Assembly: GCA_017937135.1 (NCBI GenBank)
Contig: JAGBEE010000010.1
Span: 1 to 51,376 of the forward strand
Origin: Clostridia bacterium
GTDB lineage: Bacteria; Bacillota; Clostridia; Oscillospirales; CAG-272
Direction of reading: 5' to 3'
DNA length: 51,376 bases
Positions 29,104-45,089 of this stretch are shown in pieces. A program made the translations under genes and the position numbers. Numbering within the stretch: position 1 is the stretch's first letter; the number at the start of each line of letters is the position of its first letter. Below the pieces are notes generated by a model, which made no database searches, was not told the origin of the DNA, and worked only from the letters and a program-made list of their open reading frames with translations.

Positions 29104-29195
29104 GGAGAAGTACTCAAGAGGCCGAAGAGGCGCCCCTGCTAAGGGTGTAGGTCGGGTATACCGGCGCGAGAGTTCAAATCTCTCCTTCTCCGCCA
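29104..29195 (+). tRNA. tRNA-Ser (anticodon GCU)
   Basis: Acceptor GGAGAAG (29104-29110) pairs with CTTCTCC (29185-29191); discriminator G192, then encoded CCA. Anticodon stem CGCCC/GGGUG encloses loop CUGCUAA, anticodon GCU, reading AGC/AGU Ser codons. A long variable arm (AGGUCGGGUAUACCGGC) is typical for tRNA-Ser; the T arm is GAGAG-UUCAAAU-CUCUC. Its last 25 bases plus one more are the left copy of the att core of the element that follows, so the 3' end is restored by the inserted DNA. Confidence 0.95.
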
Positions 29196-29196
29196 A
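29171..29196 (+). repeat. attL core (26-bp direct repeat)
   Basis: Begins AGTTCAAATCTCTCC and ends CTCCGCCAA, identical to 45064-45089. It covers the T loop, 3' acceptor strand and CCA of tRNA-Ser, a standard target of tyrosine integrases. Confidence 0.95.
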
Positions 29197-29203
29197 ACAA
29201 CAA

Positions 29204-29256
29204 GCCCTTAAAAATGCTGACAAATCCAGTATTTATAAGGGCTTTTGTGTTTTTTA
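29204..29256 (+). terminator. Element-borne terminator after tRNA-Ser
   Basis: AAGCCCTTA pairs with TAAGGGCTT around a partly paired loop, followed by TTGTGTTTTTT. It lies inside the element and replaces the tRNA's probable own terminator, now beyond the right end at 45092-45126. Confidence 0.8.
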
Positions 29257-29305
29257 AAAAAAGCATAATTATACCAAAAAGTACGATTAAATACTAAAAC
29301 AAATA

Positions 29306-29332
29306 AGTCAAAAATTAGTCAATTCGCAAATC
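29306..29332. promoter_or_regulatory. Possible integrase arm-type sites at the left end
   Basis: AAGTCAAAAATTAGTCAA followed by TTCGCAAAT resembles TTAGTCAAAAATTGCAAAT at the right end (45018-45036). Short repeated sites near both ends fit integrase arm or excisionase binding. Confidence 0.35.
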
Positions 29333-29417
29333 CCCCTGGAAGCGGCACCGTTGTTGCCGAGTGCCTACCTAACTAACTTTTTTTAAAAGTCAGTCATGAA
29401 CCCCGGCACTTTTTTCC
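29331..29417. other. Hairpin-rich non-coding segment inside the left end
   Basis: Contains CGGCA-N7-TGCCG (near 29343-29359) and an outer AGTGCC...GGCACT stem (29360-29410) around a second hairpin, then TTTTTT on the plus strand. ATGACTGACTTT on its minus strand (forward 29387-29398) recurs exactly at 41072-41083. No gene or clear promoter. A structured RNA or replication/packaging signal is possible. Confidence 0.45.
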
Positions 29418-29498
29418 TGTCACGAAGCATACGGGAATTTGCTATAAAAAAACTCACCTTATCAAAGAGCTTACCCATTTTAATAGGTGCGTACCGAA

Positions 29499-29541
29499 AA
29501 TCCCCCCTGTGTTCCGGCGAGCCTGCTTCACAGGGGGGTTA
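29499..29541 (-). terminator. Strong GC-rich hairpin after the ATPase gene
   Basis: AATCCCCCCTGTG and CACAGGGGGGTT form a 12-13-bp stem with a 17-nt loop directly downstream of the late operon. On the minus strand a short ATTTT follows, so it may end the late transcript. The position and strength also suit the packaging hairpin that filamentous phages carry next to the end of their morphogenesis genes. Its CCCTGTG/CACAGGG core is shared with a hairpin upstream of rep. Confidence 0.65.
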
Positions 29542-29555
29542 ATATCGTTTAAATA

Positions 29556-31697
29556 TTAGCGTCGTTTGTGTCGCTTAATGCGCTCGAGCTGTTCGTCGGC
29601 GAAATAGCTTTTCATTTTCGAAAACTCATAAGTCATAGGTTTTTTTCCCTCAAAAACAGGCATATCAATCAACCCATGCTCTGCACTTTTAGATATTTCG
29701 TCGGACATTAAGCTATAACAATCTGATGCGTATCTATTATTATGAATAATTGCATAAATTAAAAAATAATCATGAAAATCAACTTCTCCAGTTTTCGAGC
29801 AAGCTTTAGTTCGCGCGAACTTTATTTTTTCATAGCCAAAAAGTGCAACCGTGCGTTGAAAATATCGTTCGATTGGCGCAATGATTTTTGTAACAAGATA
29901 GTACGGCAAAGTATTTCGTTTTCCATAATGAAACATCATTTTATCAAAATTCTTGTACCAATCTATTATTCTTTCTAAAGCTCCACGTTCCAAAAACAAA
30001 GGCAGCGCTATTTTCATTTTACTATTGTCGTATATATTTAGCACATCATAAAGTGAGCTTTCGCCGGCTTTAAAATTTTCAACACGCTGCATATCGGCGC
30101 CATTCCAAACGTAACATTTGAAACGAACTGAAGCTTCATGACGCTCCATCATTAAATACTTTCCAAATCCATCATTCAATGAATTAGCTTGCTCAGAATT
30201 AATATCAAAAACCTTGTTTGTATTTTGATTACCTCTATCCTTATCTAATTCAGTTTTTATGCGAACACCATAATCAACTGCGCCAATGTTTTTATTTTCA
30301 GGATCCATGGGTTTCGAATAACGCATTGTATCATAGTCATCAATGTGGCAGTACCGTGTATACTCTTCAAAAAGCTCCGGTTTTCTATCAAGCATATTAT
30401 TGTCCCATAATGGCATATAACCCGGTATTTTTTTTAAATCAGTTCGAATGCTAAAATTAGCTAAAATGCAAGAGGTGTCATTGGAATACATATAATACAA
30501 CTGTACGTAATCATTTAGCTCTTCCCAAATGCTCACATAGCGATAACTATCATCATATGTTAACCTTCCAGTATAACCCCAAATGTTTTCAGGCACTCTA
30601 TTATATATGTGCTCAGTCATACGCATAAAAACAAAGTTGCGCGCTGTGTGCATTGAAAATATATAATGCTCCTCAATTTGTTTATCAATCTCAGCTTGAA
30701 AACGCTCGAACGGAAAATCAGGAAAATGTACGTGGATTTCGTGCATGGAATCCCATTCATCTGTGTGGAACTGATCCTCTTTCATTATAGACATCTGAAC
30801 AAGCGTTTTTGTTTTGCTCGAGCCTGTAGGTCCGTCTAAAAGAACATTGTAAGCTAAAGATTTTGAAAAGCCCATATCATACAAATACATGTGATCAAGT
30901 CTATCTTTTCCTACAGATTTGCGCCAAATATAAAAAATTACAACGCCGATGCAAAGCCAAAAGACCACAGGCGCACTCGTAAACATAATTATAAAATCAA
31001 GAATCAAAGTCGCTACCGTTTGCAATATTGAGCTAACACCCGGAGCGACAGAAAACCATGCAAACCAAGCTACAAGCTCAAAAAGCAACGTTAACAAGTT
31101 TAGATTAAAGCACCATATCAATATAAAAACAAAAAAATACCATGAGTTTCTGAATCTTGTTAAGAAGCTTATTAATTTGGAAAAAACATAAGATAACGGC
31201 GCGCTGATTTTCTCTTCAAAAAAAATGAGTGCTTTAGTTTTCTCATACCCATTTTCAGCATAATCATAGAGCTTTATTCCTATTATTAGACTAAAAACGT
31301 TATAAAACATATAAACTAGCATGAGCACAATGAAAGTAACAAGTACTTTATACATTACCGTCAATAAATACAACTGAAAATTGCTCCCAATAAAAAGCGC
31401 ATGCCAAGTATTTTTCAATTTAAAAATAATATCTCCAGTATCAAAAGGTAATATATTCATCATATCCAAATACTTTGTAGAAGAAAAAACACCATATGTA
31501 GTACCCCACTCAGCTTGTCCCTGCATTGCAACTTTAAACCAATGAACAAATGATTTTTTTAAGTGCACAGCCGAATTGGCGAATCGAAATACAGTTAAAT
31601 CATATTTCAAAAAAGTAAAAAGCAAAGATACAAATATAGTTATCAATGCAGCCATGTGAAATTTATATTTAAGAATTTTAGAAATCACACTCTTCAT
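29556..31697 (-). CDS. Polytopic P-loop ATPase, putative inovirus morphogenesis protein (pI/Zot-like)
   Basis: 713 aa; GGAGAG lies before the ATG at 31697. Residues 1-~275 contain about five or six membrane segments; the ATPase follows with Walker A GPTGSSKT (289-296, Lys295) and then a mixed alpha/beta domain with ILANFSIRTDLKKIPGY and WEELNDYVQLYY, a possible Walker B region. In filamentous phages the pI/Zot ATPase drives virion extrusion through the membrane and is the one conserved marker gene. Here the membrane segments precede the ATPase, the reverse of Ff pI, and are more numerous, more like TcpA/VirD4 coupling proteins. Position as the last late gene favours pI. Family placement is inference. 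Confidence 0.55.
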   Translation of the reverse strand: MKSVISKILKYKFHMAALITIFVSLLFTFLKYDLTVFRFANSAVHLKKSFVHWFKVAMQGQAEWGTTYGVFSSTKYLDMMNILPFDTGDIIFKLKNTWHALFIGSNFQLYLLTVMYKVLVTFIVLMLVYMFYNVFSLIIGIKLYDYAENGYEKTKALIFFEEKISAPLSYVFSKLISFLTRFRNSWYFFVFILIWCFNLNLLTLLFELVAWFAWFSVAPGVSSILQTVATLILDFIIMFTSAPVVFWLCIGVVIFYIWRKSVGKDRLDHMYLYDMGFSKSLAYNVLLDGPTGSSKTKTLVQMSIMKEDQFHTDEWDSMHEIHVHFPDFPFERFQAEIDKQIEEHYIFSMHTARNFVFMRMTEHIYNRVPENIWGYTGRLTYDDSYRYVSIWEELNDYVQLYYMYSNDTSCILANFSIRTDLKKIPGYMPLWDNNMLDRKPELFEEYTRYCHIDDYDTMRYSKPMDPENKNIGAVDYGVRIKTELDKDRGNQNTNKVFDINSEQANSLNDGFGKYLMMERHEASVRFKCYVWNGADMQRVENFKAGESSLYDVLNIYDNSKMKIALPLFLERGALERIIDWYKNFDKMMFHYGKRNTLPYYLVTKIIAPIERYFQRTVALFGYEKIKFARTKACSKTGEVDFHDYFLIYAIIHNNRYASDCYSLMSDEISKSAEHGLIDMPVFEGKKPMTYEFSKMKSYFADEQLERIKRHKRR

Positions 31698-31712
31698 TCA
31701 GCTCTCCACTCA

Positions 31713-31817
31713 TCACAATCGCCAAAACGTGAATAATATATATCCTAAGATAAATATTATTCCTATTGACAATCCGATCTTTAATATTTTAAATATAAGT
31801 TTTTTCAATATCTTCAT
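31713..31817 (-). CDS. 34-aa single-span membrane protein
   Basis: A short frame: ATG at 31817 with AGAGGT at forward 31823-31828, stop at 31713-31715, 15 bp before the ATPase start. It encodes MKILKKLIFKILK, then a hydrophobic stretch IGLSIGIIFILGYILF and a short TFWRL tail. The size, basic end and single span resemble minor coat proteins pVII/pIX or the pVI-like small proteins of inoviruses. Good ribosome site and tight spacing make it likely to be real. Confidence 0.6.
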   Translation of the reverse strand: MKILKKLIFKILKIGLSIGIIFILGYILFTFWRL

Positions 31818-31844
31818 TTTTTACCTCTTTTTCAATTTTAGCCA

Positions 31845-31967
31845 TTGACTTTTTTTGTATCTATTGTGTATAATAATATTAAGAAAAGGATTTAGTGACC
31901 GCCTTCGCGAGGAACGTTGAACGATGTACGAATTAAGTTTCGGGTGTTCGTCCTTTTCTTTTTTTGT
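31845..31967 (+). ncRNA. Putative structured small RNA 1 of the element
   Basis: TTGACT (31845-31850), 18-bp spacer and TATAAT (31869-31874) form a promoter reading against the late operon. The expected start coincides with AAGAAAAGGA (31881-31890), which pairs perfectly with TCCTTTTCTT (31951-31960), followed by a T run. The ~60 nt between contain small hairpins (CCTTCGCGAGG, CGTTGAACG). Thus an ~85-nt RNA closed by its own terminator stem. It could regulate late genes, or the promoter and hairpin could serve as an RNA-primed complementary-strand origin. Confidence 0.5.
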
Positions 31968-32066
31968 GCTATTTTTTTATAATTTTCTTTACAGATTCTT
32001 TGTCATTATCTGAGAATTTCCAGCCTCGTAGCTTCTTACCAAAAGATGACTTGTTATATTTTTAAG

Positions 32067-32099
32067 GTGCTGCAGATTACTCCGAAGCACCTGTTTTTT
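32067..32099 (+). terminator. Hairpin with T tract after the 508-aa protein gene
   Basis: AGGTGCT and AGCACCT pair around a 14-nt loop, followed by GTTTTTTT on the plus strand. The T tract is on the plus side, so it would stop plus-strand transcription entering the late operon rather than the minus-strand gene beside it. Confidence 0.55.
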
Positions 32100-33625
32100 T
32101 ACTTGAACTTACGTTTGTTTTTTCTTATTTTAGTATATATTGCTGTGCCAAGCGCACTTATTCCAAGCAGCGCAATTATTGCCATGATAATGCCTACTAC
32201 ACTTGGAGCATCTGATGAACTGTCCTTTGCGTAATCGTAGCCATCCATATAGCCATCTTGATAAGTTTCCGTTAATTTATCAGACCAACCATCCGGAGCT
32301 TGTGCCATGCCTGCGAGCACACCTTTTTTATACGCAACATCTCCGGCCTCTGCATAGCCAGCGTCGTACCCGGCACTCACGCCTGATGCATATTCAGAGC
32401 TTAATGTGTTTGTATATTCTACACTATTTTTGTATTGCTCTATACCATATTGAACGCCTTCACTACGTATTTGATTCATCGCAGTAATGTGCTCCTCAGA
32501 AATCTTATAATTTTCTACTGCTTCAATCTTTGCAGCTTCTATGCTATTTGTATAATCGGCGCTTGCTTTATAATTAGCCATACCATCATAGGCACCGTCC
32601 CTGTAGCCTTCCATATAGTGACATCCCATTGGGTCGCTCAACGAGCCATTAGAATAGTAAATATAAAAATTCTCAGACTCATGTCCTTGTTCATAATTTG
32701 CTCCAGAAGTGACATTTCCTTCACCACTGCCATCTGAACCGGAACTTCCAGAATTACTTACGCTCTCACGTGCAACTATATCATGCACAATATTTGCTAA
32801 ACTTGTTTCGTAAATAGACTTAAGCTCACTGTTGTATGTACCCAAGTATTCCATAAATCCTTGCTCTGATATAGCTGTTTCAGTGCTCGAGCATTCCTCT
32901 AAGTATGCATTCCATGCACTTGACATTTGACTACCAAGATTTTTGTCACCATTTTCAAGACCATAAACGTATGCTGATGCAAACGTGCTAACTATATTAT
33001 CAAAATATCCTATATTTTGAATTGCATTATGTAAATCCGAATTATTTGTTTGCAAATATTCCATATATTCATTTTTAACTTCTGCAGTATCTCCTGAACC
33101 TACATATGTCGAAATAAACGATTCCCAAGTGTTGTTCAAATCATAGCCTATATCACTATTTAATTCTTCAATAGAAAGGGCGTTACAAGTACACCAGCCT
33201 GTATAATATCCATCTGTTTCATAAACTTTAATTACGTGATTATCATCACATTGTGGATATAAAATAGCCGTATTATATGAATTTTCGGCAAGATATAAAA
33301 GATTCTCTATCTGCATTTCTAAATTATAATTATTATTATAAACATTTTTCAATTCTTCGGACATTAATTCAAATACTTTACTTTTTTCAAATACAATAGG
33401 ATTGGAATTTACATATGATGCAACTAAACCATTAATGTCATTAATATAATTTTCTTTTATATAAGTATGTGATGTATTGCACACTGTGCAAGTATATACA
33501 TCATAATAAGTCCCTACTTCTACAGTAAACGTACAGCTCTCGCACGTTTCTGCTGAAACAGCAAGCGCCAGGCTGAACGCAAGCACTAAGCACATTGCTA
33601 CAGTTATTAATATTTTCTTTTTCAT
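32099..33625 (-). CDS. Secreted, C-terminally anchored protein (candidate virion tip/adsorption protein)
   Basis: 508 aa; ATG at 33625 overlaps the preceding stop (TAATG) with AAAGGA upstream. Signal peptide residues 1-~26 (cleaved near VSA-ETC), a short Cys-rich module with C-x2-C pairs (CESC, CTVC), a long acidic helical region, a GSSGSDGSGEG linker, a region with repeated GY-x-x-G/A motifs (YRDGAYDG, GYDAGYAEAG, GYMDGYDYAK), then one membrane span (~473-495) and a basic tail KIRKNKRKFK. This signal-plus-C-terminal-anchor design is that of filamentous phage pIII. No homology is asserted; function from topology and position. Confidence 0.6.
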   Translation of the reverse strand: MKKKILITVAMCLVLAFSLALAVSAETCESCTFTVEVGTYYDVYTCTVCNTSHTYIKENYINDINGLVASYVNSNPIVFEKSKVFELMSEELKNVYNNNYNLEMQIENLLYLAENSYNTAILYPQCDDNHVIKVYETDGYYTGWCTCNALSIEELNSDIGYDLNNTWESFISTYVGSGDTAEVKNEYMEYLQTNNSDLHNAIQNIGYFDNIVSTFASAYVYGLENGDKNLGSQMSSAWNAYLEECSSTETAISEQGFMEYLGTYNSELKSIYETSLANIVHDIVARESVSNSGSSGSDGSGEGNVTSGANYEQGHESENFYIYYSNGSLSDPMGCHYMEGYRDGAYDGMANYKASADYTNSIEAAKIEAVENYKISEEHITAMNQIRSEGVQYGIEQYKNSVEYTNTLSSEYASGVSAGYDAGYAEAGDVAYKKGVLAGMAQAPDGWSDKLTETYQDGYMDGYDYAKDSSSDAPSVVGIIMAIIALLGISALGTAIYTKIRKNKRKFK

Positions 33626-35445
33626 TACTTCTTTTCCTTTCGCTTCTTAAAGACATTTACGATTTTTAAAACTATATTTATAATTATCAATATAACGATT
33701 ATACAGAATATTATCATTAAAATTGTGTATATTTCTTGCAAAAATTCATTAACAGGGTCCGGAGGAATATACGGTGCCGTTACTCCAGTAATCGTATTCA
33801 CAGGTGAATGAACAACAGCAAATATAGTAAGATTGTATCCATCATATAAATGCACCTCGAGAATATCAAACTGAGTTACGGCCGTCATCTCAACTACAAA
33901 ACTACCTTCACCGTCAGTACCCACCTTATCTGGCCCAACACACTCGTCAAGTATATCATTCACTCCCGTTACGTGGTACACATTTTCATAAGTCTTATAA
34001 TCTGTAGCAGAATAGCGAAAAAGAAACATTGTTGAATCACCTTTATAATCGGCTTTTATATTTTCCACGTCCTCAAGCGCTACATAGTATTTTTTGGAAA
34101 ATTCTTCATTAGATAAATTGTATATGTCTATAGAATCAATTGTCTGAAGGTTCGAAAATGTTACTTCACCGTCTTGCTCAAAATCTTCACGAAAACAATT
34201 AAAAGTATAATCCCAAAGCGATGGAATCAAATATTCATATTTATTCAACGCATTTATTGTACTTGCCTGAAATAGCTCTGGATTGTCAAGATTGTAATGA
34301 GTATCATCAATACTTTCAAATAAATTTTCGTTCCAATTAAGACCATCTAAATATTCATTCATTTCGCGTGAAGAAATAACCATTTCAAGAGATTCAATAG
34401 GTTCTTTTTCTAAAAATACACCGGCTAAAATATGATGAACTATGCCATCATGATTGTCTTCATCAAAATAATCATGTCCTTTCGGTGCAAATGCGTCAGC
34501 ATATTCACGTGCAGCTTGATAGTGTGAATACAAATTAAAATACAAAAACCAATCTCTATATTCAGCATTGTATACTGTATTAACCTGCGGAATAAATTTA
34601 TCATAAACATCCTTTGATGTGGTTATAAGCATAGGAGCGAGCTTACACTCTCTCCAAACCGCACTTAAAGCTGTTAAATCACCGTATTTATTTATCATAT
34701 CGTTTGATATATTAAACCAACAGCTTCTAAGGTCTTTATATAAACCATATTCATCCGTTTGGATGCGATAATATGTATGCTTGTCCTTAGTATTTAATTG
34801 CAAAACTGTATTCGGGTACTCAACTCTTGAAGCAAGATACCCATTTTCTTCATAAAAAAAGTGCTTTTGGTCCACTGCGAAATCCGTAGCTTCTGACGCA
34901 CCATCAATTACTAACTCTATTCCACTAAAGTAATAATAACGCTCTTCCACCTTAGAGCCAACAGAAATGCCACTTGTTGGAATTTCAACTCTATATTTAA
35001 GTATTAAGCCGTTAGTGCTCTCGCCTGTTTCATTCGTTGAACCATATGTATCTACCAAAGATATGTGTGGCTTTTTAGTTTGAATGCCTTCAGATAAATA
35101 CAAATTCGTTGAAAACTGAATAAGGTTGTTTTCAGAAGAAAAGGTTATATTTTCCATACGTGGATTATATACGTATATGTATAATGCATAACCGTCAAAA
35201 TCGCCTTTTTCAAAATATTGCTCATAGCCCTGCTCGGTTACCGCAATAATTATTGGTGCTTCAAGCTTCGTTGTTGCCTTGTAATCGGCAAGCTTATAAT
35301 GATTAAGAAAAACATACTCGAAATCGTAAGCAATATCCGTTTCGCTTAAATTTTCAACATCAAGCTTTATATTAGTTGCAAAAACAGGAACGGTCATTGC
35401 AAATAACATAATCACTACTATTATGCTGCTTAATAATTTTTTCAT
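33625..35445 (-). CDS. Secreted, C-terminally anchored protein (second candidate adsorption protein)
   Basis: 606 aa from ATG 35445, chosen because AAAGGAG lies 4 bp upstream; a frame from 35487 would start without one. Signal peptide MKKLLSSIIVVIMLFAMTVPVFA, then a ~540-residue extracellular region rich in aromatic and acidic residues, then a hydrophobic C-terminal span (IIFCIIVILIIINIVLKIV) with basic tail FKKRKEKK. Same topology as the following 508-aa protein and coupled to it. Not recognised by family; its place fits a structural or receptor-binding protein. Confidence 0.6.
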   Translation of the reverse strand: MKKLLSSIIVVIMLFAMTVPVFATNIKLDVENLSETDIAYDFEYVFLNHYKLADYKATTKLEAPIIIAVTEQGYEQYFEKGDFDGYALYIYVYNPRMENITFSSENNLIQFSTNLYLSEGIQTKKPHISLVDTYGSTNETGESTNGLILKYRVEIPTSGISVGSKVEERYYYFSGIELVIDGASEATDFAVDQKHFFYEENGYLASRVEYPNTVLQLNTKDKHTYYRIQTDEYGLYKDLRSCWFNISNDMINKYGDLTALSAVWRECKLAPMLITTSKDVYDKFIPQVNTVYNAEYRDWFLYFNLYSHYQAAREYADAFAPKGHDYFDEDNHDGIVHHILAGVFLEKEPIESLEMVISSREMNEYLDGLNWNENLFESIDDTHYNLDNPELFQASTINALNKYEYLIPSLWDYTFNCFREDFEQDGEVTFSNLQTIDSIDIYNLSNEEFSKKYYVALEDVENIKADYKGDSTMFLFRYSATDYKTYENVYHVTGVNDILDECVGPDKVGTDGEGSFVVEMTAVTQFDILEVHLYDGYNLTIFAVVHSPVNTITGVTAPYIPPDPVNEFLQEIYTILMIIFCIIVILIIINIVLKIVNVFKKRKEKK

Positions 35446-35492: not shown

Positions 35493-36029
35493 TTATTTGT
35501 TGATAACGAAGAAGTCTCCAGCTTCCTCGCCTTCAATAAGTACTGGAGAAAATGTTACATTACACTCAGTCTTAGCACCAATGTTAATGTACACAGTTGC
35601 AGTTGCTTCCTCTTCAACCGTAAAAGTTGAGTCCGTGCCGAAGTCAGCGTAATAAGTGTTTTCACCAATTACAATTGCCATATTGTAACCGTTTTTTGAA
35701 GTACCTTTCACACCTGATGAGAAAGTGTAAGTGCCCTTTGCAAGAGTAAGCTCTTGAACCTTAATTTGTTGTGATTCCTCTGTTTCATTTTCACCAGAAA
35801 TCTTAATTTGACCATTCTCAGTTACATCAATGGTATAACCCAGGCCGGTATTAAGGTCCTCAACGTCGTATGAATCAACCTTAATAAGGTTGTCCTCGTT
35901 CACGGAGCGAAGCTCCATGTCGTTTACGTTCCATGTACCGTTTGTTAAAAAACCAAATAACGTGCACAACGCAAAAGTTAATAGCACGCAAACAATAATA
36001 ATTATAATTTTGTCCTTTGTTTTAGACAT
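35493..36029 (-). CDS. Membrane-anchored small extracellular protein
   Basis: 178 aa; AAAAGGAG precedes the ATG at 36029. One N-terminal hydrophobic segment (IIIIIVCVLLTFALCTLFGFL) is followed by a ~140-residue beta-rich acidic domain (YTIDVTENGQIKISGENE, LAKGTYTFSSGV, ATVYINIGAKTECNVTF) predicted to be outside. The pattern is like small jelly-roll domains. It sits where coat protein genes lie in filamentous phages, but is larger than any known major coat protein. Function unknown. Confidence 0.6.
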   Translation of the reverse strand: MSKTKDKIIIIIVCVLLTFALCTLFGFLTNGTWNVNDMELRSVNEDNLIKVDSYDVEDLNTGLGYTIDVTENGQIKISGENETEESQQIKVQELTLAKGTYTFSSGVKGTSKNGYNMAIVIGENTYYADFGTDSTFTVEEEATATVYINIGAKTECNVTFSPVLIEGEEAGDFFVINK

Positions 36030-38428: not shown

Positions 38429-38629
38429 CTAAGGCGGACGCAAGTCCTCCTCAGAAGTATCGTGCACGTACTGAAAAACAAAATAATCAGGCTTGCAGCA
38501 TACAAGCTTTATATTTGAATTAGACGGATTCTCTGCAAGCTCTAAGACCGTATCATTAACAAACGTTTGCAAGGAGCAACCTATGTTAAGCTCACGGCCG
38601 TCCACAATTTTATATTGCAAAATTTGCAT
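38429..38629 (-). CDS. Small element protein of unknown function
   Basis: 66 aa; AAAGGAT precedes the ATG at 38629. No membrane segment; beta-rich with acidic C-terminus EEDLRPP. No family recognised. Last gene of the minus-strand small-gene block. Confidence 0.55.
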   Translation of the reverse strand: MQILQYKIVDGRELNIGCSLQTFVNDTVLELAENPSNSNIKLVCCKPDYFVFQYVHDTSEEDLRPP

Positions 38630-38640
38630 ATTTTATCCTT

Positions 38641-38877
38641 TCAAAAGTGCCTAACGTGCACTTTTAAATGTAATATGTTATTTGTATCAATGAAAATAGT
38701 ACGAACCTTAGCTTCGCACACGCTCGGCCAGGCGAACCATTTTTCGATTTTTGACGGAATTCCTTCATAACAAAGGGATTCCTTAGTAGGGCTATTTATA
38801 ACATCCACAACAACATTACGACGAGCATCCAGGCAAGGAAGCACTTCGTTTAATATCATTTCTTTAATAATTCCCAT
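38641..38877 (-). CDS. Small element protein of unknown function
   Basis: 78 aa, 11 bp before the next gene downstream. Soluble, mixed alpha/beta (MGIIKEMILNEVLPCLDARRNVVVDVI...). No family recognised; real by spacing and unbroken operon context. Confidence 0.55.
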   Translation of the reverse strand: MGIIKEMILNEVLPCLDARRNVVVDVINSPTKESLCYEGIPSKIEKWFAWPSVCEAKVRTIFIDTNNILHLKVHVRHF

Positions 38878-38882
38878 AAATA

Positions 38883-39260
38883 CTACTCCACCACATCAAT
38901 TCCATATAATCTACAAAAATCTAAAAACTCTTCAAAATTATGGACAGTCTTATCAGCTGTTTTGTCATAAAAATCCTTAAGCTCCAGCCTGGAAAAGACA
39001 TTCCTGCAGCCCATAAAAAGTGAAACATATCTTTTTGCAAAATTTATTTCTTTTTCCTGGATAGCATATGCAGCTCGTAGCTTTTCGATAGCACGACAAT
39101 ACATACCGGTGCGCTCCACTCTTGCACACTCAACCTTATCAACCATCCTTTTATTAGAAGCGATATAACAAAGCCTACAGATAAACTTAAGCTCCGGAGG
39201 ATATAAATCCCCCTTTGGAGCATTTAAATCCTCGTCCTGTAATTTCATATTATCTTCCAT
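38883..39260 (-). CDS. Small element protein of unknown function
   Basis: 125 aa from ATG 39260: the upstream TAA and the ribosome site AGAGAGG lie 2-9 bp before it, so the longer frame from 39287 is less likely. Contains C-RLC and a lysine/arginine-rich helical middle (CRAIEKLRAAYAIQEKEINFAKRYVSLFMGC) and an acidic end. No family recognised. Confidence 0.6.
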   Translation of the reverse strand: MEDNMKLQDEDLNAPKGDLYPPELKFICRLCYIASNKRMVDKVECARVERTGMYCRAIEKLRAAYAIQEKEINFAKRYVSLFMGCRNVFSRLELKDFYDKTADKTVHNFEEFLDFCRLYGIDVVE

Positions 39261-39262
39261 AA

Positions 39263-39490
39263 TTACCTCTCTGACGATGACAACCAACGTGCAAACGATG
39301 GAATCGATATTGAATATTGACCACCAAGACGAACTGCAGGCAATGGATTTCTCTTACGAGATATTGAAGAACGAACGCGACGTTCGTCGCAACCAAGAAC
39401 ATTAGCAACGTCTTTTACGTTAATTGCTGCTTTTCCTGGGAAAAGCTCAAGGAGCCTTTCAAGATTTATACGATAATCAGGTTTTTCCAT
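39263..39490 (-). CDS. Excisionase-like winged-helix DNA-binding protein
   Basis: 75 aa. INVKDVANVLGCDERRVRSSISRKRNPLPAVRLGGQYSISIPSFARWLSS is the helix-turn-helix plus wing of MerR/Xis-type small proteins. Such proteins direct excision or act as early regulators in integrated elements. Overlaps the end of the upstream gene by 14 bp and is 2 bp from the next. Confidence 0.75.
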   Translation of the reverse strand: MEKPDYRINLERLLELFPGKAAINVKDVANVLGCDERRVRSSISRKRNPLPAVRLGGQYSISIPSFARWLSSSER

Positions 39491-39794
39491 GCTGCACTCC
39501 TATTTTCGATTTAAACATCTTTATAATATTTTCTTTTTTTACATAAGGTAAACCAATAATATATGAACCGTGCCCTCCGGTAACAAGAACGTCACCATAA
39601 ACTCCTGGAATTTGCTTGTTTTCAGGAAGCTCATTCCTGGTGTCTCTACGTACAAACGTTAAGCAATCGGTAAATAATTTAATTGTGTCAACGGGCCCAC
39701 CAAGACAATCTCGTATAGACTCTACCGTGCTATCAAGCCAAACGCTAAGAATACGCCCATCAGCACACAACTGTACTGCATTAATCCTTCTCAT
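39477..39794 (-). CDS. Small element protein (possibly DUF3846-like)
   Basis: 105 aa from ATG 39794, which overlaps the end of the upstream gene and has TTGGAGG 13 bp before it; a frame from 39875 would overlap that gene heavily. The pattern IRDCLGGPVDTIKLF...ELPENKQIPGVYGDVLVTG loosely recalls DUF3846 proteins of mobile elements; I hold that lightly. Confidence 0.55.
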   Translation of the reverse strand: MRRINAVQLCADGRILSVWLDSTVESIRDCLGGPVDTIKLFTDCLTFVRRDTRNELPENKQIPGVYGDVLVTGGHGSYIIGLPYVKKENIIKMFKSKIGVQHGKT

Positions 39795-40101
39795 CGCAAA
39801 TAAGCGCCTCCAAACGAACTCGAGTATAATCATCACCCTCGTCATAAAATGAATTAACAACACGATACAAACCACTGGTCATTGGTGTCTCAAGCCAAAT
39901 AACTTCTCCATTCTCAAATTTTCCACTTAATAACAAGTCGCCACCAAAAATAGAGTCCGAATAATCTTGTTTTAAAAAATATGTACGAGCATAATACAAA
40001 TTCTTGCCTGAACGACGGTTCAAGTAAAAATCAATAACACTAACTATCAAGCAAATCGAAAATAGTATTAATGAAACAATTGACAAAATCATAGTCGTCA
40101 T
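39781..40101 (-). CDS. Small membrane protein of the element
   Basis: 106 aa with one N-terminal hydrophobic segment (MILSIVSLILFSICLIVSVIDFYL) followed by a soluble domain of ~75 residues. No family recognised; one of a run of short overlapping minus-strand genes. Confidence 0.55.
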   Translation of the reverse strand: MTTMILSIVSLILFSICLIVSVIDFYLNRRSGKNLYYARTYFLKQDYSDSIFGGDLLLSGKFENGEVIWLETPMTSGLYRVVNSFYDEGDDYTRVRLEALICDEKD

Positions 40102-40103
40102 AT

Positions 40104-40382
40104 TTATTCCTCCTTCAATTCAATGTCCGTCACAGCTAAAGTTCCAATCGAATCATAATCAAACGGTAACTCTTCTACGTCACTACGCAATATTACTGCA
40201 GATGCAAACCCCTGAAGCAACACAATATTTTGAATAATATTATCTATCTGCGCGGGAACAAAACCATTTTTTAAATCATTTTTTATTGATTTGGGGCAAT
40301 CTAAGCTTAAAAAGCAGATTGCATCATCCTCAAGGTCAACTGCTTTGTACCATATTGTACATGTATATAATTCTTTTTCCAT
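40104..40382 (-). CDS. Small element protein of unknown function
   Basis: 92 aa, acidic, soluble; two bases from the following gene. Begins MEKELYTCTIWYKAVDLEDDAICFLSL. No family recognised. Confidence 0.55.
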   Translation of the reverse strand: MEKELYTCTIWYKAVDLEDDAICFLSLDCPKSIKNDLKNGFVPAQIDNIIQNIVLLQGFASAVILRSDVEELPFDYDSIGTLAVTDIELKEE

Positions 40383-40403
40383 TTTTTATTTTTCCTTTAT
40401 TTT

Positions 40404-40601
40404 TTATTTATAATAATCAATTGGTACATTCGGATGCAGATTCTTAATCACCTCTTGGCGCTTAAGAAGCTCTGCATCCGTCGTTTGAAGGAGACTAAGC
40501 TTTTTATTTAAGTGGTCATAAAAACCAACCTTTGTAAGATAACGCATGTATATTGTTACCTTCTCAATTTTCCTTCCGTCTTGTGTTTTCTCTCCCGGCA
40601 T
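40404..40601 (-). CDS. Small element protein of unknown function
   Basis: 65 aa, basic, helical (LTKVGFYDHLNKKLSLLQTTDAELLKRQEVIKNLHPNV). It starts 3 bp after the gene upstream. No family recognised. Confidence 0.5.
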   Translation of the reverse strand: MPGEKTQDGRKIEKVTIYMRYLTKVGFYDHLNKKLSLLQTTDAELLKRQEVIKNLHPNVPIDYYK

Positions 40602-40604
40602 ATC

Positions 40605-40799
40605 CTAAACCTCTTCAAATGAAAAGTATTTCAAATTTGGAACAGTGTGCTTATGCCTGGCTAAACAATTTCTTCCAATACGGTCAATTGAGTAGTCAGA
40701 CGTCAACGGATTATATATAAGTACACTCGTTCCATCAGGAAGTGCACTTGCTTCCTGCTTGGTGAGCTCCCACAGGGAGATTTCTACTCTTTTAGGCAT
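40605..40799 (-). CDS. Small element protein of unknown function
   Basis: 64 aa from the ATG at 40799, with GGTGAG five bases upstream; a GTG at 40805 is a less likely start. Begins MPKRVEISLWELTKQEASALPDG. Soluble; no family recognised. Confidence 0.5.
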   Translation of the reverse strand: MPKRVEISLWELTKQEASALPDGTSVLIYNPLTSDYSIDRIGRNCLARHKHTVPNLKYFSFEEV

Positions 40800-41010
40800 T
40801 TTCACTCACCGCCTTTATTCCAATTTCAAAATAACTCTTTTTGTGCACTTCGCTGAAACATTCAGGTATCATGTCCAAATATTTCGATTCACATTTTGCA
40901 TAGCTACCATAATAAATGACTTTATGACTATATAAGTCGTATAAGATAATAGTTGCTAAAGGTAAAGCCTCTTTTTTATCAAGCCGTTGTTTTATTGTTA
41001 GTTTTTTCAT
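40792..41010 (-). CDS. Small element protein of unknown function
   Basis: 72 aa; AAAGGTAAA lies upstream of the ATG at 41010. Contains LATIILYDLYSHKVIYYGSYAKCESKYLDMIP; no membrane helix. Overlaps the next gene by 8 bp. Confidence 0.5.
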   Translation of the reverse strand: MKKLTIKQRLDKKEALPLATIILYDLYSHKVIYYGSYAKCESKYLDMIPECFSEVHKKSYFEIGIKAVSENA

Positions 41011-41032
41011 TTTTATTTTTTACCTTTATATA

Positions 41033-41142
41033 TTGACAATTAATTTTTTTGTGATATAATATCACTAAGTAATGACTGACTTTCCGTAAGTCCCGGCTAA
41101 TGTTTTCTAAAAAAACGTTTGGCACGTCATTACTTTTTATTT
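41033..41142 (+). ncRNA. Putative structured small RNA 2 of the element
   Basis: TTGACA (41033-41038), 16-bp spacer, TATAAT (41055-41060). The transcript would open with AAGTAATGAC (41067-41076), perfectly complementary to GTCATTACTT (41126-41135), followed by a T-rich tract. Inside are a GACTT/AAGTC hairpin and an AATGTTTT/AAAACGTT-like hairpin. Same plan as small RNA 1: strong plus-strand promoter, long closing stem that doubles as terminator, about 70 nt, lying against minus-strand genes. Confidence 0.5.
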
Positions 41143-41483
41143 TTTTGTAAAAATTTATTTTTAGCTCTTCTTCCATATTCTAGAGCTGTAGAATAATTTC
41201 TTTTAGACATTTGACCTTTTCGCGTTCTACGCGAATAATTTTTTATTTTGTCAACTGTTCCCTGCCTTCTCATATAAGAATCAGCTCCTTTACCAAAAGG
41301 ATCAAAATCAAGCTTTTTATTTGTCGAATTATTACCTTTTTTCACTTTTGTAGTAAAGCCTACAGACAAATAATTACCTTCAAATTCTTCCAAAATAACA
41401 TGATTATGTCCACCATTCATATCACGATGCCTTTTAGTTATAATTTGAACAGTTTCATTTTTTGATTTTTTCTTTGAAATCAA
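41130..41483 (-). CDS. Small basic element protein of unknown function
   Basis: 117 aa from TTG at 41483 with AAGGAG 6 bp upstream. Strongly basic, with HNHVILEEFEGNYLSVGFTTKVKKG and a C-terminal half rich in Arg/Lys (YSRRTRKGQMSKRNYSTALEYGRRAKNKF). It may bind nucleic acid; no family recognised. First gene of the small-gene block and divergent from the 109-aa gene. Confidence 0.6.
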   Translation of the reverse strand: MISKKKSKNETVQIITKRHRDMNGGHNHVILEEFEGNYLSVGFTTKVKKGNNSTNKKLDFDPFGKGADSYMRRQGTVDKIKNYSRRTRKGQMSKRNYSTALEYGRRAKNKFLQKNKK

Positions 41484-41522: not shown

Positions 41523-41576
41523 GTAATTGTAATTTCCCTACTTATTGCTATACTTTAAGAAAGGGGGATGCTGAAC

Positions 41577-41906
41577 ATGCTAAATTTAGATTTATGCAAA
41601 TTATATGGTGTTGTAACTGCTTCCGGAAAAGTCACAAAAAAATTTCAAGAAGCAGTTTTAATGCTTGAAAATGGGTATAAATTTTCATATCGAATTCAGG
41701 AGTTTCTTGATCCTGATAAGCTCAGTACATATGAAATTTATCCAAAATCATCAAGATACATTTTAAATGTACTGCATGTAATTGGTTCTAAAGCAATAGC
41801 ACTGCCTGAAGACCAAAAGAAAAATCGAAAAACAAAAGTTTATACTGTCAAGCTCACCAAAAAACAACAGGCGCAATTAGACGAATTAAAAAGTCTATGC
41901 AAATAA
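41577..41906 (+). CDS. Element protein of unknown function
   Basis: 109 aa from ATG 41577, preceded by AAGGGGG at 41561-41567; the ATG at 41568 is too close to that site. Soluble and basic towards the end (KKNRKTKVYTVKLTKKQQAQLDELKSLCK). Own consensus promoter and terminator, so it is expressed separately from the lytic block, perhaps in the integrated state. Function unknown. Confidence 0.65.
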   Translation: MLNLDLCKLYGVVTASGKVTKKFQEAVLMLENGYKFSYRIQEFLDPDKLSTYEIYPKSSRYILNVLHVIGSKAIALPEDQKKNRKTKVYTVKLTKKQQAQLDELKSLCK

Positions 41907-41918
41907 CAGCATCCATGG

Positions 41919-41958: not shown

Positions 41959-42004
41959 TTAATTAATTTATAAGCAGTTATTTGTAGACTTCAGCTGCTT
42001 ATCT

Positions 42005-42298: not shown

Positions 42299-42352
42299 AA
42301 CTATTTCCTCCTTTCTCAATATTTATTTCACTCCGAGCTTTAGCTCAGAGAT

Positions 42353-42541
42353 TTAAACAACAAAATAATTGAGCGGGACATCTAAAGCACGACAAATAGA
42401 AAAATATTCCTCTGCTTTAATTGTTCGATTGCCATTTAACATAGCACTAAAAGTATTAAATGGTATATGACACTTATGAGCTACAGAACCGATTTTATAC
42501 CCGCGATTCAAAATATAATCTTTTATACGTTTTCCTAACAT
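42353..42541 (-). CDS. Cro-like XRE regulator
   Basis: 62 aa from ATG 42541 with TGGAGG five bases upstream; a TTG start four codons earlier is unlikely. The whole protein is one helix-turn-helix domain (LGKRIKDYILNRGYKIGSVAHKCHIPFNTFSAMLNGNRTIKAEEYFSICRALDV). Divergent from the CI-like gene with shared operators, so likely the lytic-side repressor or early activator. Confidence 0.85.
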   Translation of the reverse strand: MLGKRIKDYILNRGYKIGSVAHKCHIPFNTFSAMLNGNRTIKAEEYFSICRALDVPLNYFVV

Positions 42542-42556
42542 ATGTGCCTCCAAAAT

Positions 42557-42642: not shown

Positions 42643-42650
42643 ATTTTCTA

Positions 42651-42679
42651 TTGATTTTCTGAAAATTACATTCTATAAT
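42651..42679 (+). promoter_or_regulatory. Promoter of the cI-like gene
   Basis: TTGATT (42651-42656), 17-bp spacer, TATAAT (42674-42679), 30 bp before the ATG. Confidence 0.8.
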
Positions 42680-42708
42680 GATGTTAGAAAATACGAAAGG
42701 ATGATAGT

Positions 42709-43086
42709 ATGTCAATTAAGGAAGAAATAGCCAAAAACATTCTTTTTTACAGAAAAAAATACGGCTATACACAAAGTCAGTTAGGTAAACTACTTGGCGT
42801 AAGAAACACATCTGTATCAAATTGGGAAACCGGTGACAATTCTATTGATATTGAAACGTTAATCAAACTTTGCAAAATTTTCAATGTTGAGTTAAATGAT
42901 ATGTACGGTCCATTTGGAAAAAAAGAAGAGTTCACAGAAAAAGAACGAAAAATAATTGAAGCTTACAGAGCAAAACCCGGAATGCAACCTGCGGTCGATA
43001 CTTTGCTTTTAACAGAAAACAATACTTTAGCTAATGATATGAAATCAACTATTGAAAAAGTAACTACCCCTACAAAACAAAAATAA
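42709..43086 (+). CDS. CI-like XRE repressor
   Basis: 125 aa; GAAAGGATG lies upstream of the ATG. N-terminal helix-turn-helix (NILFYRKKYGYTQSQLGKLLGVRNTSVSNWETGDNSIDIETLIKLCKIFNVELNDMYG) and a short helical C-terminal part, too short for a LexA-type self-cleaving domain. Probably keeps the element silent by binding the three operators upstream; release would not be through RecA-stimulated self-cleavage. Confidence 0.85.
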   Translation: MSIKEEIAKNILFYRKKYGYTQSQLGKLLGVRNTSVSNWETGDNSIDIETLIKLCKIFNVELNDMYGPFGKKEEFTEKERKIIEAYRAKPGMQPAVDTLLLTENNTLANDMKSTIEKVTTPTKQK

Positions 43087-43153
43087 TCTTCCCATATATT
43101 AGGGAAGATTGTGTTTTTATTTTTATAATTTATGAAACATAAGGAGAATTAAA

Positions 43154-43927
43154 ATGTCACAAGAATTAAAATGTCCTATCTGCGGGGAACCGACTAACGT
43201 CTATATGGGTAATGCAAGAAAAGACAGACTTTGCTATAAACACGGAAGAATGGCTAACAAAGAAGAAATTAAGCTCAACGATAACGGTGAATACGTTGAC
43301 ACTGCCACAGGTGAAATACTTAATCCAAAACAAAAAACAAATTCAAAAATTGAATTTACACAAGAAGATTCACCAATGGTGATTAAATTTGATTCAGGAA
43401 TAAAATGCATAACTTGCGGTTTTGAAACAAACGGAAAGCTTTTCTGTACAAGATGTTACAAAAAATACCATGACAAAGAAATTTTAATTAAAATCAAAAA
43501 CTGTGTCGAAATAGAACCTCTTGATGAATCTTATGAAGGCAACTATGTATGTGACGATGGACACATTGTTAAAAGCATGGCAGAAAGAGATATTGACGAC
43601 TATTTATTTGATAAACAACTTCGTCATGCATACGAACCTGAATTGAGATTAAAAGATAAAAACGGTAAATTTATAATAATTCATCCTGATTTCTGTGTTT
43701 TTGACAAAAATGACAAAGAAAAAATTCTTTATTACATAGAATACTGGGGATATGATGAAAACAATCGTGACTACACAAAAACAAAAAAATTCAAAACTGA
43801 ATTGTATGAACTAAACAAAGTCACACTGATAAATATAAATGCAAAAACAGATTTAAAAAATCTCAAATCATCCCTTAAATTTAAAATTGAAAACTACGAA
43901 GAAGAAAAAAACAACTTTAAAGACTAA
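43154..43927 (+). CDS. Zinc-ribbon protein with PD-(D/E)XK nuclease-like domain
   Basis: 257 aa; AAGGAG precedes the ATG. Two zinc-binding clusters: C7-x2-C10 with C27-x2-H30, and C85-x2-C88 with C98-x2-C101. The C-terminal half has SMAERDIDDYLFDKQLRHAYEP (Glu144), HPDFCVF (Asp179) and YYIEYWG (Glu196), the usual order of acidic residues in PD-(D/E)XK nucleases; the third motif has Trp where Lys is most common, as in several subfamilies. Placed between repressor and integrase, a typical site for lysogenic accessory genes. Could protect the lysogen from other elements or process DNA; not established. Confidence 0.7.
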   Translation: MSQELKCPICGEPTNVYMGNARKDRLCYKHGRMANKEEIKLNDNGEYVDTATGEILNPKQKTNSKIEFTQEDSPMVIKFDSGIKCITCGFETNGKLFCTRCYKKYHDKEILIKIKNCVEIEPLDESYEGNYVCDDGHIVKSMAERDIDDYLFDKQLRHAYEPELRLKDKNGKFIIIHPDFCVFDKNDKEKILYYIEYWGYDENNRDYTKTKKFKTELYELNKVTLININAKTDLKNLKSSLKFKIENYEEEKNNFKD

Positions 43928-43990
43928 AAACCACCCCTTATGGAGTGGTTATCACACAAAATTCATTTTGTCAAGAAAGGAGGCTACAAG

Positions 43991-45016
43991 ATGGGAAAAT
44001 TGAAACGTCGAGCTGATGGACGTTATCAGAAAACGATTGTTGACAAGCGCACCGGCAAAAAAGTATATTTTTATGGAAAAACCGAAAAGGAAATTAACCA
44101 AAAAGTACTTGCTTATTCTGACAAGCAAGAAAATGGCGCTTCATTCTCTGAAGTAGCCTGTAATTGGTGGGACGAAGCCAATGAGAAATTAGCATACCAA
44201 TCAACAAAAACATATAAGCCGGCTTTGAAAAGAGCAATTGAACATTTTTTAAATACTCCTATTAAAAAAATTACAACTAAAGATATTACTGTTTTTTTAA
44301 CCAACCTTGCAAAGCAAGGGTATGCACAACGAACTGTACAAAACCAAAAATTAATTTGCAAGTTGATTTTTGATTTCGCAATTAACGAAAACAATATCGA
44401 TTATAATCCCTGCTCTTATGCTAAGCTTCCCAAAGCTGCACCCACTAAAAAAAGAGCTGCAGCAAGCTCTCATGACGAAGAAATAATTAAAAAATCATAT
44501 GACATTTGGCTATTCCCTTTCATAGCTATTATGACAGGTATGAGAAAAGGCGAAATATTGGCACTACAATGGCAAGACATAAATTTTGACGAAAATTTAA
44601 TTTATATCACCAAATCTGTTTTTCACAAAGGGGATAAACCGTTTATAAAAGAACCGAAAACAACTGCAGGTTTTCGCTCCATTCCTCTGCTCGCACCACT
44701 AAAAAAAGTTTTTAATAATATTAAAAACAGAAAATCGACCGATTACATTATATCAGATGACGGTACAAAACCACTTACGAACAGACGCTTTATTACTTTG
44801 TATAATAACTTTAAAAAGCAAACCAATATTTCTTGCACAGCCCATCAGCTCCGTCACACGTTTGCAACAACCGCTTTCGAATGTGGCGTGCCAATTAAAG
44901 CAATACAAGAAATTTTGGGCCACACGCAAATTTCAACGACGTTGGACATTTACACAGATTTTCGTAAAGAATCTTTAAAACATGCTACAGACCTACTAAA
45001 TGAAAAGATGTCATAA
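43991..45016 (+). CDS. int: Tyrosine recombinase (phage integrase)
   Basis: 341 aa from ATG 43991, with AAAGGAGG upstream; the longer frame from 43940 lacks a ribosome site. N-terminal AP2-like arm-binding region (GRYQKTIVDKRTGKKVYFYGKT), SAM-like core-binding domain, then catalytic domain with Arg185 (TGMRKGE), His285 and Arg288 (HQLRHTF), His311 (LGHTQ) and nucleophile Tyr321 (DIYTDF). All catalytic residues present. It ends 47 bp before the right att core and would act on the 26-bp repeat in tRNA-Ser. Confidence 0.95.
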   Translation: MGKLKRRADGRYQKTIVDKRTGKKVYFYGKTEKEINQKVLAYSDKQENGASFSEVACNWWDEANEKLAYQSTKTYKPALKRAIEHFLNTPIKKITTKDITVFLTNLAKQGYAQRTVQNQKLICKLIFDFAINENNIDYNPCSYAKLPKAAPTKKRAAASSHDEEIIKKSYDIWLFPFIAIMTGMRKGEILALQWQDINFDENLIYITKSVFHKGDKPFIKEPKTTAGFRSIPLLAPLKKVFNNIKNRKSTDYIISDDGTKPLTNRRFITLYNNFKKQTNISCTAHQLRHTFATTAFECGVPIKAIQEILGHTQISTTLDIYTDFRKESLKHATDLLNEKMS

Positions 45017-45063
45017 ATTAGTCAAAAATTGCAAATAAACGCATACGATAAGCTTTCCAAATA

Positions 45064-45089
45064 AGTTCAAATCTCTCCTTCTCCGCCAA
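45064..45089 (+). repeat. attR core (26-bp direct repeat)
   Basis: Identical to 29171-29196, the 3' end of tRNA-Ser. Only this fragment of the tRNA gene is present here, so it marks the right end of the insertion. Confidence 0.95.

Follow-up and report, generated by a model that had tools for sequence, protein, structure and literature searches.

A tRNA-integrated element of a Clostridia bacterium, probably a provirus from a divergent inovirus-related lineage with an enlarged ATPase motor

We analysed a stretch of 51,376 nucleotides from a Clostridia bacterium (contig JAGBEE010000010.1 of GCA_017937135.1), here called the window, which is one complete contig (C10) of a 1.85-Mb draft genome (G000, 93.7% complete). 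Positions 29171-45089 hold an element of 15,919 bp that has the look of an intact provirus. It is inserted at a tRNA gene and encodes an integrase together with regulators of the CI/Cro type. The loci that share its polytopic P-loop ATPase form a large family, in which this element diverges strongly from the rest. It is probably the provirus of a divergent inovirus-related lineage, which would replicate by the rolling-circle mode and use an enlarged motor to extrude its DNA, in single-stranded form, across one membrane. We file it as inovirus-like and not as an inovirus, because the family departs from two published criteria for the inovirus motor pI, namely a match to the Zot model and the presence of one or two membrane spans.

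The boundaries were found from the tRNA gene. ARAGORN recognised tRNA-Ser(GCU) at positions 29104-29195, and an exact 26-bp repeat of its 3' end lies at 29171-29196 and 45064-45089. This bears out a preliminary description, made from the sequence alone, of a 15.9-kb element between tRNA repeats. The ATPase gene adjoins the tRNA gene, and the integrase gene adjoins the far repeat. The G+C content is 34.7% in the element and 38.8% in the whole window. All the open reading frames (ORFs) listed earlier exist, including that of a 34-aa single-span peptide. We scanned 20 of the 27 listed ORFs of the element with Pfam, the other seven being small or overlapping, and only the integrase (PF00589, E-value (E) 1.7e-26) and two helix-turn-helix regulators (HTH_3; CI-type, E 3.4e-15; Cro-type, E 6.9e-5) exceeded the cut-off, which confirms the integrase and the CI/Cro switch proposed before. 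No terminase, portal or capsid family and no core family of type IV secretion systems (T4SS) or conjugation was above the cut-off in these 20 ORFs, as the preliminary description had stated, and no terminase, portal or capsid family was found in 10 ORFs compared with PHROGs. The host genome, at 93.7% completeness, has no match to the coupling protein PF02534. An Rfam scan gave no match. In three genomes of the same genus, the gene of the right flank was present with no tRNA gene nearby, and no empty site was found.

The 713-aa ATPase had no match in Pfam or NCBIfam and one meaningless match in PHROGs (E up to 1). Relatives were sought by a pattern scan of 84,980 species genomes, in which at least 592 stretches matched; at least 89 of these encode a relative, and at least 77 distinct loci were kept. 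The ATPase was recognised in 92 of the 94 fetched loci, a presence that follows from selection since the loci were fetched by way of it (L097 and L104 hold fragments), and 90 distinct loci remained after two repeated contigs were removed (L040 is the same contig as L028, and L113 the same as L024). L040 and L113 are left out of the counts of distinct loci and are still included in the cluster tallies, the profile comparisons of the protein clusters (c1, c2 and so on), the peptide seeds, the hydropathy and c21 tally, and the search of 66 proteins described below. Within the family, the P-loop residues G289, K295 and T296 are invariant. About 190 residues further on, E483, K486, N490, D535, Q537 and R538 are invariant in both alignments, and R519 and H520 are nearly so. 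The family-mean profile, by the Kyte-Doolittle scale only, shows about four hydrophobic segments in the N-terminal part.

The accessible part of PMC6813254 (Roux et al.) describes pI as a protein whose nearest Pfam domain is Zot, with no better match to another ATPase type and with one or two transmembrane domains (TMDs); it further expects a Rep in at least half of the genomes and a short (30-90 aa) structural protein with one TMD. Using hhalign, we compared the family with 17 Zot-type, 20 FtsK, 17 VirD4-type and four HerA-like proteins. The Zot set contained 11 gut inovirus-type proteins and six genome matches to PF05707, some of them weak (L173, L176), and "HerA-like" is a label coined here for four weak PF05707 matches. 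A first alignment over the whole length covered little beyond Walker A. For the segment with Walker A, the p-value was 4.7e-8 against Zot, compared with 3.2e-4 against FtsK, 2.0e-4 against VirD4 and 3.3e-4 against the HerA-like set. The segment without Walker A scored 25.7 against Zot, a value reached by none of 200 column shuffles of the Zot set (maximum 20.1), while its scores against FtsK (13.3), VirD4 (12.5) and the HerA-like set (12.8) were reached by 35, 33 and 29 of 40 shuffles, respectively. In the consensus of this Zot alignment, ITE is paired with IDE, CRH with HRH, Q with Q, and RxL with RxL; the window ATPase keeps the E, the RH and the Q, and the R of RxL is not kept. A plain hmmsearch of 66 P-loop proteins placed six members of the Zot set at the top (best E 7.6e-5).

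The ATPase core thus appears nearest to Zot/pI, and the evidence overall is modest but consistent. Neither method gave a better match to the FtsK, VirD4 or HerA-like sets. The preliminary description had proposed that a much better match to TcpA or VirD4 coupling proteins, together with an initiator that matches MobT and an oriT, would mark the element as mobilisable; the outcome mostly favoured the description, in that Zot/pI proved closer than the three other sets, which include neither TcpA nor VirB4. Another check that it proposed, a profile search of the ATPase against pI/Zot, gave a negative answer for the Pfam Zot model, and the Zot, FtsK and VirD4 models matched none of 51 family ATPases (E up to 1). 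No PHROGs family was common to more than two of the 51 members (among the 25 of 26 families shown), and the ATPase profile had only a doubtful match in PDB sequences, to an ATP-synthase subunit outside the P-loop (E 0.012).

The replication initiators give a second line of evidence. Cluster c2 (about 345 aa) matched PF23343 (REP_ORF2-G2P) in all 46 members scanned (best E 1.3e-13), and its HxH and YxxKYxxK motifs are invariant. The c2 profile was run against three inovirus loci and matched the Rep that is annotated in bajarodino virus 15 (Inoviridae; E 2.6e-12). In this virus, Zot (1-864) is followed by Rep (942-1847). The same order is found in the family, where c2 starts less than 300 bp from the end of the ATPase gene in 53 of 65 cases. 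Neither the c2 profile nor the window Rep had a credible match in PDB, the former having no match at all. The window carries a 499-aa initiator that resembles Rep_trans (E 0.0096) below the curated cut-off (16.0 against 29.6 bits), so that the label given to it earlier holds as a similarity and not as an assignment; it also resembles phrog_20614, a replication initiation protein (E 4.9e-4), and has a Rep_trans-like homologue in L024 (also fetched as L113). Eight loci carry another initiator, c21, in which Pfam recognised Rep_OBD and RNA_helicase (L111 being the only member scanned), and L093 carries Rep_1 (PF01446, E 1.1e-13).

Among 46 distinct loci with full context, which do not include the window, 37 have the G2P-type initiator, six c21, one the Rep_trans-like type and one Rep_1, and none was recognised in L116. 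Pfam supplied these calls for the 46 c2 proteins, one Rep_OBD-type protein and L093, and the remainder were made by cluster or profile. A Rep is therefore present in 45 of the 46, where at least half would be expected of inoviruses. No locus carries two of the G2P-type, c21 and Rep_trans-like initiators. On the ATPase tree, which is a quick tree with several long branches and omits L040, L064, L113, L117 and rows shorter than 650 aa, c21 requires at least four changes across well-supported branches. It appears that at least three further Rep types have replaced the G2P-type initiator.

The ATPase belongs to a conserved module. N-anchored proteins (c3, c4, c14, c19) come first in the order of transcription, and next is c1, which is large, has a signal peptide and is anchored at its C-terminus. 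The single-span peptide and the ATPase follow, often with c2 after them. We found c1 in 65 of the 68 distinct loci with more than 4.5 kb upstream, and its profile had no match in PDB sequences. Profile comparison linked c4 with c14, c4 with c19 and c3 with c19 in the N-terminal anchor (about 35 residues), c3 with c14 over 149 columns, c14 with c19 over 72 columns, and c3 with c4 in the ectodomain. The anchor match is more than shared hydrophobicity, because c1 scores far lower against c3 or c4. The small soluble proteins c5 and c6 are frequent in the relatives; the 103-aa and 87-aa proteins of the window belong to neither. Genes resembling PcfJ and PcfK (c11 and c17, one member of each scanned) lie near the module in 16 and 12 loci, respectively, for example L044 and L063.

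The single-span peptide has about 32 aa and a consensus of about MKT-KRILAVLLLIVVALVVGYLVYTG-RL. Of 81 eligible distinct loci, 78 have it, and in 77 its gene immediately precedes that of the ATPase on the upstream side; L020, L108 and L109 had no match to the peptide model. This recall is partly circular since the model was built from 72 seeds chosen by motif near the ATPase. As a control, the 15,147 small ORFs of these loci gave only three matches (E < 0.05) beyond the search interval, and these were beside the first piece of a split ATPase (L111), in a second tandem copy (L085) and 0.7 kb upstream (L078). According to the positive-inside rule, the basic flank of a membrane span stays in the cytoplasm. 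The lysines and arginines of the peptide precede the span, and its N-terminus should therefore be inside. The peptide may belong to the coat, where its basic cytoplasmic N-terminus would face the DNA, or it may be a small motor subunit.

The features of the window element are as follows.
29104-29195, forward strand: tRNA-Ser(GCU), the integration target (ARAGORN).
29171-29196: attachment repeat at the tRNA end, 26 bp, exact (repeat search).
29556-31697, reverse strand: 713-aa polytopic P-loop ATPase with a Zot/pI-like core, candidate extrusion motor (family and profile comparison).
31713-31817, reverse strand: 34-aa single-span peptide with a basic N-terminus, directly upstream of the ATPase (conserved family-wide).
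32099-33625, reverse strand: 508-aa secreted protein with a C-terminal hydrophobic anchor (ORF and hydropathy), which has no BLAST-cluster partner in the locus set.
33625-35445, reverse strand: 606-aa C-anchored surface protein with a signal peptide (c1, by clustering), candidate adsorption protein; the ORF extends to 35487 if an upstream ATG is taken.
35493-36029, reverse strand: 178-aa N-anchored extracellular protein (c19; clustering and profile comparison).
36047-36310, reverse strand: 87-aa basic soluble protein (homologue in L026, E 1.8e-11).
36377-36688, reverse strand: 103-aa protein with an acidic C-terminus, directly downstream of Rep (single-stranded DNA-binding protein proposed by position only).
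36693-38192, reverse strand: 499-aa Rep_trans-like initiator, sub-threshold (Pfam and PHROGs; homologue in L024/L113).
38361-38403: inverted repeat within the gap 5' of Rep, possible origin.
38429-41483, reverse strand: block of small ORFs (ORF list).
39263-39490, reverse strand: helix-turn-helix protein within this block, possible excisionase (HTH_17 below cut-off).
42353-42553, reverse strand: Cro-type helix-turn-helix protein (HTH_3, E 6.9e-5).
42709-43086, forward strand: CI-type repressor (HTH_3, E 3.4e-15).
43154-43927, forward strand: 257-aa Zn-ribbon, nuclease-like accessory protein (c15; DUF2726 below cut-off).
43940-45016, forward strand: tyrosine integrase (PF00589, E 1.7e-26).
45064-45089: attachment repeat at the integrase end (repeat search).

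The earlier label of the 103-aa protein as SSB-like found no support in the libraries searched, and to regard the inverted repeat as a replication origin is speculative. A 112-aa protein at 41568-41906 has a weak likeness to F-112 (E 3.6e-4, below cut-off). The c15 protein accompanies the module in 14 loci, for example the window, L021, L023, L089, L093 and L110.

Precise integration was also observed in relatives. L020 (13.4 kb) is bounded by a 45-bp repeat at tRNA-Pro, L030 (14.7 kb) by a 53-bp repeat reaching into tRNA-Ser(GCU), L110 (13.5 kb) by a 46-bp repeat at tRNA-Lys, and L025 (about 16.46 kb) by a repeat of the same tRNA-Ser end as in the window. Each of the four holds the integrase c16 (of the tyrosine type by Pfam on one cluster member), the c2 Rep, c1 and the ATPase, and none has the Rep_trans-like protein of the window. 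The gene order relative to the tRNA varies, and the integrase stands at the tRNA in L020 and L110.

Another form of unit was found on the contig of L085 (with L201 and L202), where a unit of 10,854 bp stands twice (2.0 copies) in an exact tandem dimer at positions 169962-191671. A 15-bp flanking repeat extends into the end of the unit, and the neighbours look, by eye, like host housekeeping genes. The unit encodes c5, an N-anchored protein of 529 aa, c4, c1, the small peptide, the ATPase, a Rep of the G2P type and a transposase-like protein, and all its larger genes lie on one strand. An exact tandem dimer between host-type genes indicates a self-contained, circularly permuted unit; it could be a true dimer or a loop walked twice by the assembler, and both would require reads that join the end of the unit to its start. 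The best terminal inverted repeats of the unit (11 of 12 bases) are not convincing. The transposase-like protein (c10, which we take to be IS30-like) occurs in 17 loci, always on the strand of the ATPase and downstream of it, and all 17 lack an integrase of cluster c16 or c22. In three members scanned, an rve-type core was just below the cut-off in two, and HTH_38 was at or above it in two. Cluster c10 may be the integration enzyme of its branch, in place of a recognised integrase. None of the 16 other c10 loci showed a shared long repeat, and an exact 200-base test found none in the other loci from L017 to L117.

To judge selection and exchange, we compared close relatives. The ratio of non-synonymous to synonymous substitution rates (dN/dS) of the ATPase was 0.05 to 0.11 in five of eight pairs, the other three being saturated, and the motor is probably under purifying selection. 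L055 and L106 are 94% identical in the ATPase, 94% in c3, 98% in c4 and 97% in the small peptide, with 50% in c1, where the middle is 26-35% identical and the ends 65-67% and 79-90% (the latter C-terminal). In L074 and L075, the surface set is 24-32% identical, under 83% for the ATPase and 79% for c5. In L042/L045 and L026/L028, c1 is as conserved as the ATPase. The 36 close pairs are not independent, since several have a locus in common (L026 stands in one pair with L028 and in another with L040). In 26 of them c1 was comparable, and in 11 of the 26 its identity fell short of that of the ATPase by 25 points or more. This turnover is as expected of a receptor-binding protein under host-range change, and adhesins of another system might show it too.

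Within the host family, the ATPase was found in 13 of 196 genomes, the window's own included. Beyond it, only the own genome was found among 299 in the phylum, and the own and one other among 295 in the order; these tallies are minimum values, since only a few candidates from each genome were scored. The hosts are mostly uncultured Clostridia metagenome-assembled genomes (MAGs). Members outside this main set occur in three Anaeroplasmataceae or Acholeplasmatales bins and one Candidatus Scatousia, and two named strains have members, Pumilibacter intestinalis CLA-AA-M10 and P. muris CLA-AA-M08. In P. muris (L111, 9959-12108) the ATPase is split into two ORFs (319 and 397 aa), and in P. intestinalis (L081) it is open over 756 aa. 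Two genomes of the host family (G028 and G085) have two ATPase matches each, and another (L032, G021:C24) holds a small inovirus-like locus, which encodes a stand-alone Zot of 225 aa and a protein of 263 aa that was judged by eye to be a Rep. In L093 and L095, the module lies near genes that resemble, by eye, a ribosomal L2-L4-L3 operon.

We also searched collections of mobile elements. The window ATPase matched nothing in IMG/VR, and the family alignments matched one contig there. These scans are insensitive for single proteins, and the near-absence is weak evidence because a true Zot query also matched nothing. A tblastn search of a phage collection, which is a better test, matched one of 50,697 records. 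The ATPase of L026 had no match among 72,556 plasmid records. No terminal repeats that would mark circular contigs were found in up to 82 loci examined. The faecal scaffold MT835493 (L017) is not established as coming from purified particles; the accessible part of PMC8361208 describes a fitting study of virus-like particles, and a search for the accession turned up no paper. About 0.6 kb past the module Rep of this scaffold (23310-34986) lie BrxP-, SspC-, SspA-, PbeA- and PbeC-like genes, a phosphorothioate/BREX-like defence set that is not assigned to the element.

Several observations weigh against an inovirus-related provirus. The family is hardly present in the virus collections searched, and the IMG/VR contig and the phage record prove no particle. 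The segment without Walker A had an hhalign probability of just 8% against Zot, and its score of 25.7 was reached as well by one shuffle of the FtsK alignment, which is a longer template; the hmmsearch matches to the Zot set fall mainly on the P-loop. The Pfam Zot model misses all 51 family ATPases even at E up to 1, and these have about four hydrophobic segments, compared with the one or two expected of pI. The window ATPase has the longest end branch (3.13) of the 82 tree rows, and the window Rep belongs to a different, sub-threshold family than the G2P-type of the relatives. The c2 profile matched one of the three inovirus loci and not L032 or L118. Exchange goes beyond c1: c5 is 59% and c2 82% identical between L055 and L106, and c2 likewise falls at least 25 points below the ATPase in nine of 30 pairs. 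There is no certain major coat protein, and none of the classical signal-peptide type was recognised. Most Enterocloster inoviruses, at 6.5-8.5 kb, are much smaller than these elements, although a 16-kb example has been reported. The earlier designation as an inovirus-like prophage accordingly stands in part: the core nearest to Zot and the G2P-type Rep beside the ATPase in most relatives support it, while the missing Zot-model match, the about four segments and the uncertain coat do not.

Other explanations have to be considered. The Rep_trans fold is also that of MobT, and the Rep of the window could be a MobT-like relaxase in an integrative mobilisable or conjugative element with a single pump, whose ATPase moves DNA into a neighbour cell and whose surface proteins are adhesins. 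Large anchored surface proteins in nearly all members and the PcfJ- and PcfK-like genes near some of them would suit such an element. We nevertheless think it unlikely, since the ATPase is closer to Zot than to the FtsK or VirD4 sets, the host genome has no PF02534 coupling protein, the commonest initiator is of the G2P-type, and the plasmid records hold no match to the L026 ATPase. A Zot-like motor might also serve a virus whose particles have another shape. Pleolipoviruses have membrane-vesicle virions with anchored spikes, and the large, anchored surface proteins and the want of a recognised classical coat protein would fit such a virion; the nearly universal small single-span peptide and the ATPase-Rep order in common with an inovirus make it rather improbable.

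The constancy of the anchored proteins and the pump could also be explained by a domesticated island for a surface appendage or secretion, which is no longer mobile. This is very doubtful, because independent insertions have precise tRNA repeats and integrases, and because of the exact tandem dimer, the several exchanges of the initiator and the apparent purifying selection on the motor. Most loci come from MAGs, and unrelated genes might have been grouped by chance in one MAG contig; this is scarcely credible, being refuted by the recurrence of the same module in dozens of independent contigs. An inovirus-related provirus is the reading that we prefer.

Beyond the observed integration and homology, we infer the following course for this provirus, including its replication mode, its extrusion, its coat and a virion. 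After excision, a rolling-circle initiator (Rep_trans-like in the window and G2P-type HUH in most relatives) would make single-stranded DNA. The Zot-like domain of the membrane-embedded ATPase would drive this DNA through a single membrane. The peptide of about 32 aa would serve as a coat subunit with its basic N-terminus toward the DNA, or else as a small motor subunit, and the N-anchored proteins would be further components of that structure. Protein c1 would act like pIII, as an exchangeable adsorption protein.

It is an evenly balanced question whether the family is a deep lineage of large, inovirus-related Clostridia proviruses, so far undescribed and ranking as a family or higher, to which some members from Mycoplasmatota bins would also belong. 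The motor of such a lineage would have merged with a multi-span membrane domain, and its nearly universal peptide may be a coat protein of reversed polarity. It would use rolling-circle initiators of four or more kinds and at least two integration enzymes, and its receptor-binding protein would be modular and exchangeable. A literature search, which covered few subscription papers and preprints, found nothing describing such large elements of Clostridia or such a motor. If the proposal is true, a whole virus group of common Clostridia has been overlooked, probably because the Zot model misses its marker protein, and a motor for a single-membrane host would make the exit of filamentous phages from Gram-positive cells testable.

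Compared with known systems, the element shares features with several. Tn916-like integrative and conjugative or integrative and mobilisable elements have a tyrosine integrase and a MobT with a Rep_trans-type fold, and the element is like them in its tyrosine integrase and possibly in its initiator. It is unlike them in that no T4SS family was above the cut-off in the 20 scanned ORFs and that its ATPase is not nearest to VirD4 or FtsK.

The closest likeness in the motor concerns gut inoviruses in which Zot is a separate, stand-alone protein (the bajarodino and Dulem viruses, and Clade-1 in the accessible part of PMC8530359). Their ATPase core resembles that of the family, and bajarodino virus 15 also has the homologous Rep directly downstream of Zot. 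Like the element, Clade-1 has a large gene for a probable minor coat protein, and one of its genomes has a tyrosine recombinase with a partial match to a tRNA locus. However, the window ATPase has 713 aa compared with 196-287 aa in the Zot set, and Walker A is 188 residues from the Walker-B-like Glu in the family and 58 in the L032 Zot (counted by eye). The family ATPase also has about four N-terminal hydrophobic segments, unlike the gut inovirus Zot, and is missed by the Pfam Zot model. The five tRNA-bounded elements (13.4-16.5 kb) and the L085 unit (10.9 kb) exceed the 5.6-9.4 kb of Clade-1. The "atypical" inovirus pI with an N-terminal TMD in PMC6813254 is like the family in having its membrane part N-terminal to the ATPase core, but there it has one or two TMDs and Zot as the nearest domain.

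Filamentous phages were said in the preliminary description to be little described in Clostridia. This view is dated, because a Clostridiales inovirus clade (PMC8530359) and secreted Enterocloster inoviruses (PMC10061712) have been published. As far as the accessible text of the latter goes, the Enterocloster inoviruses are like the element in their clostridial host, in their flanking direct repeats and, in one case, in a size of 16 kb, and they differ from the family in that they were found by standard pI models and that the others have 6.5-8.5 kb.

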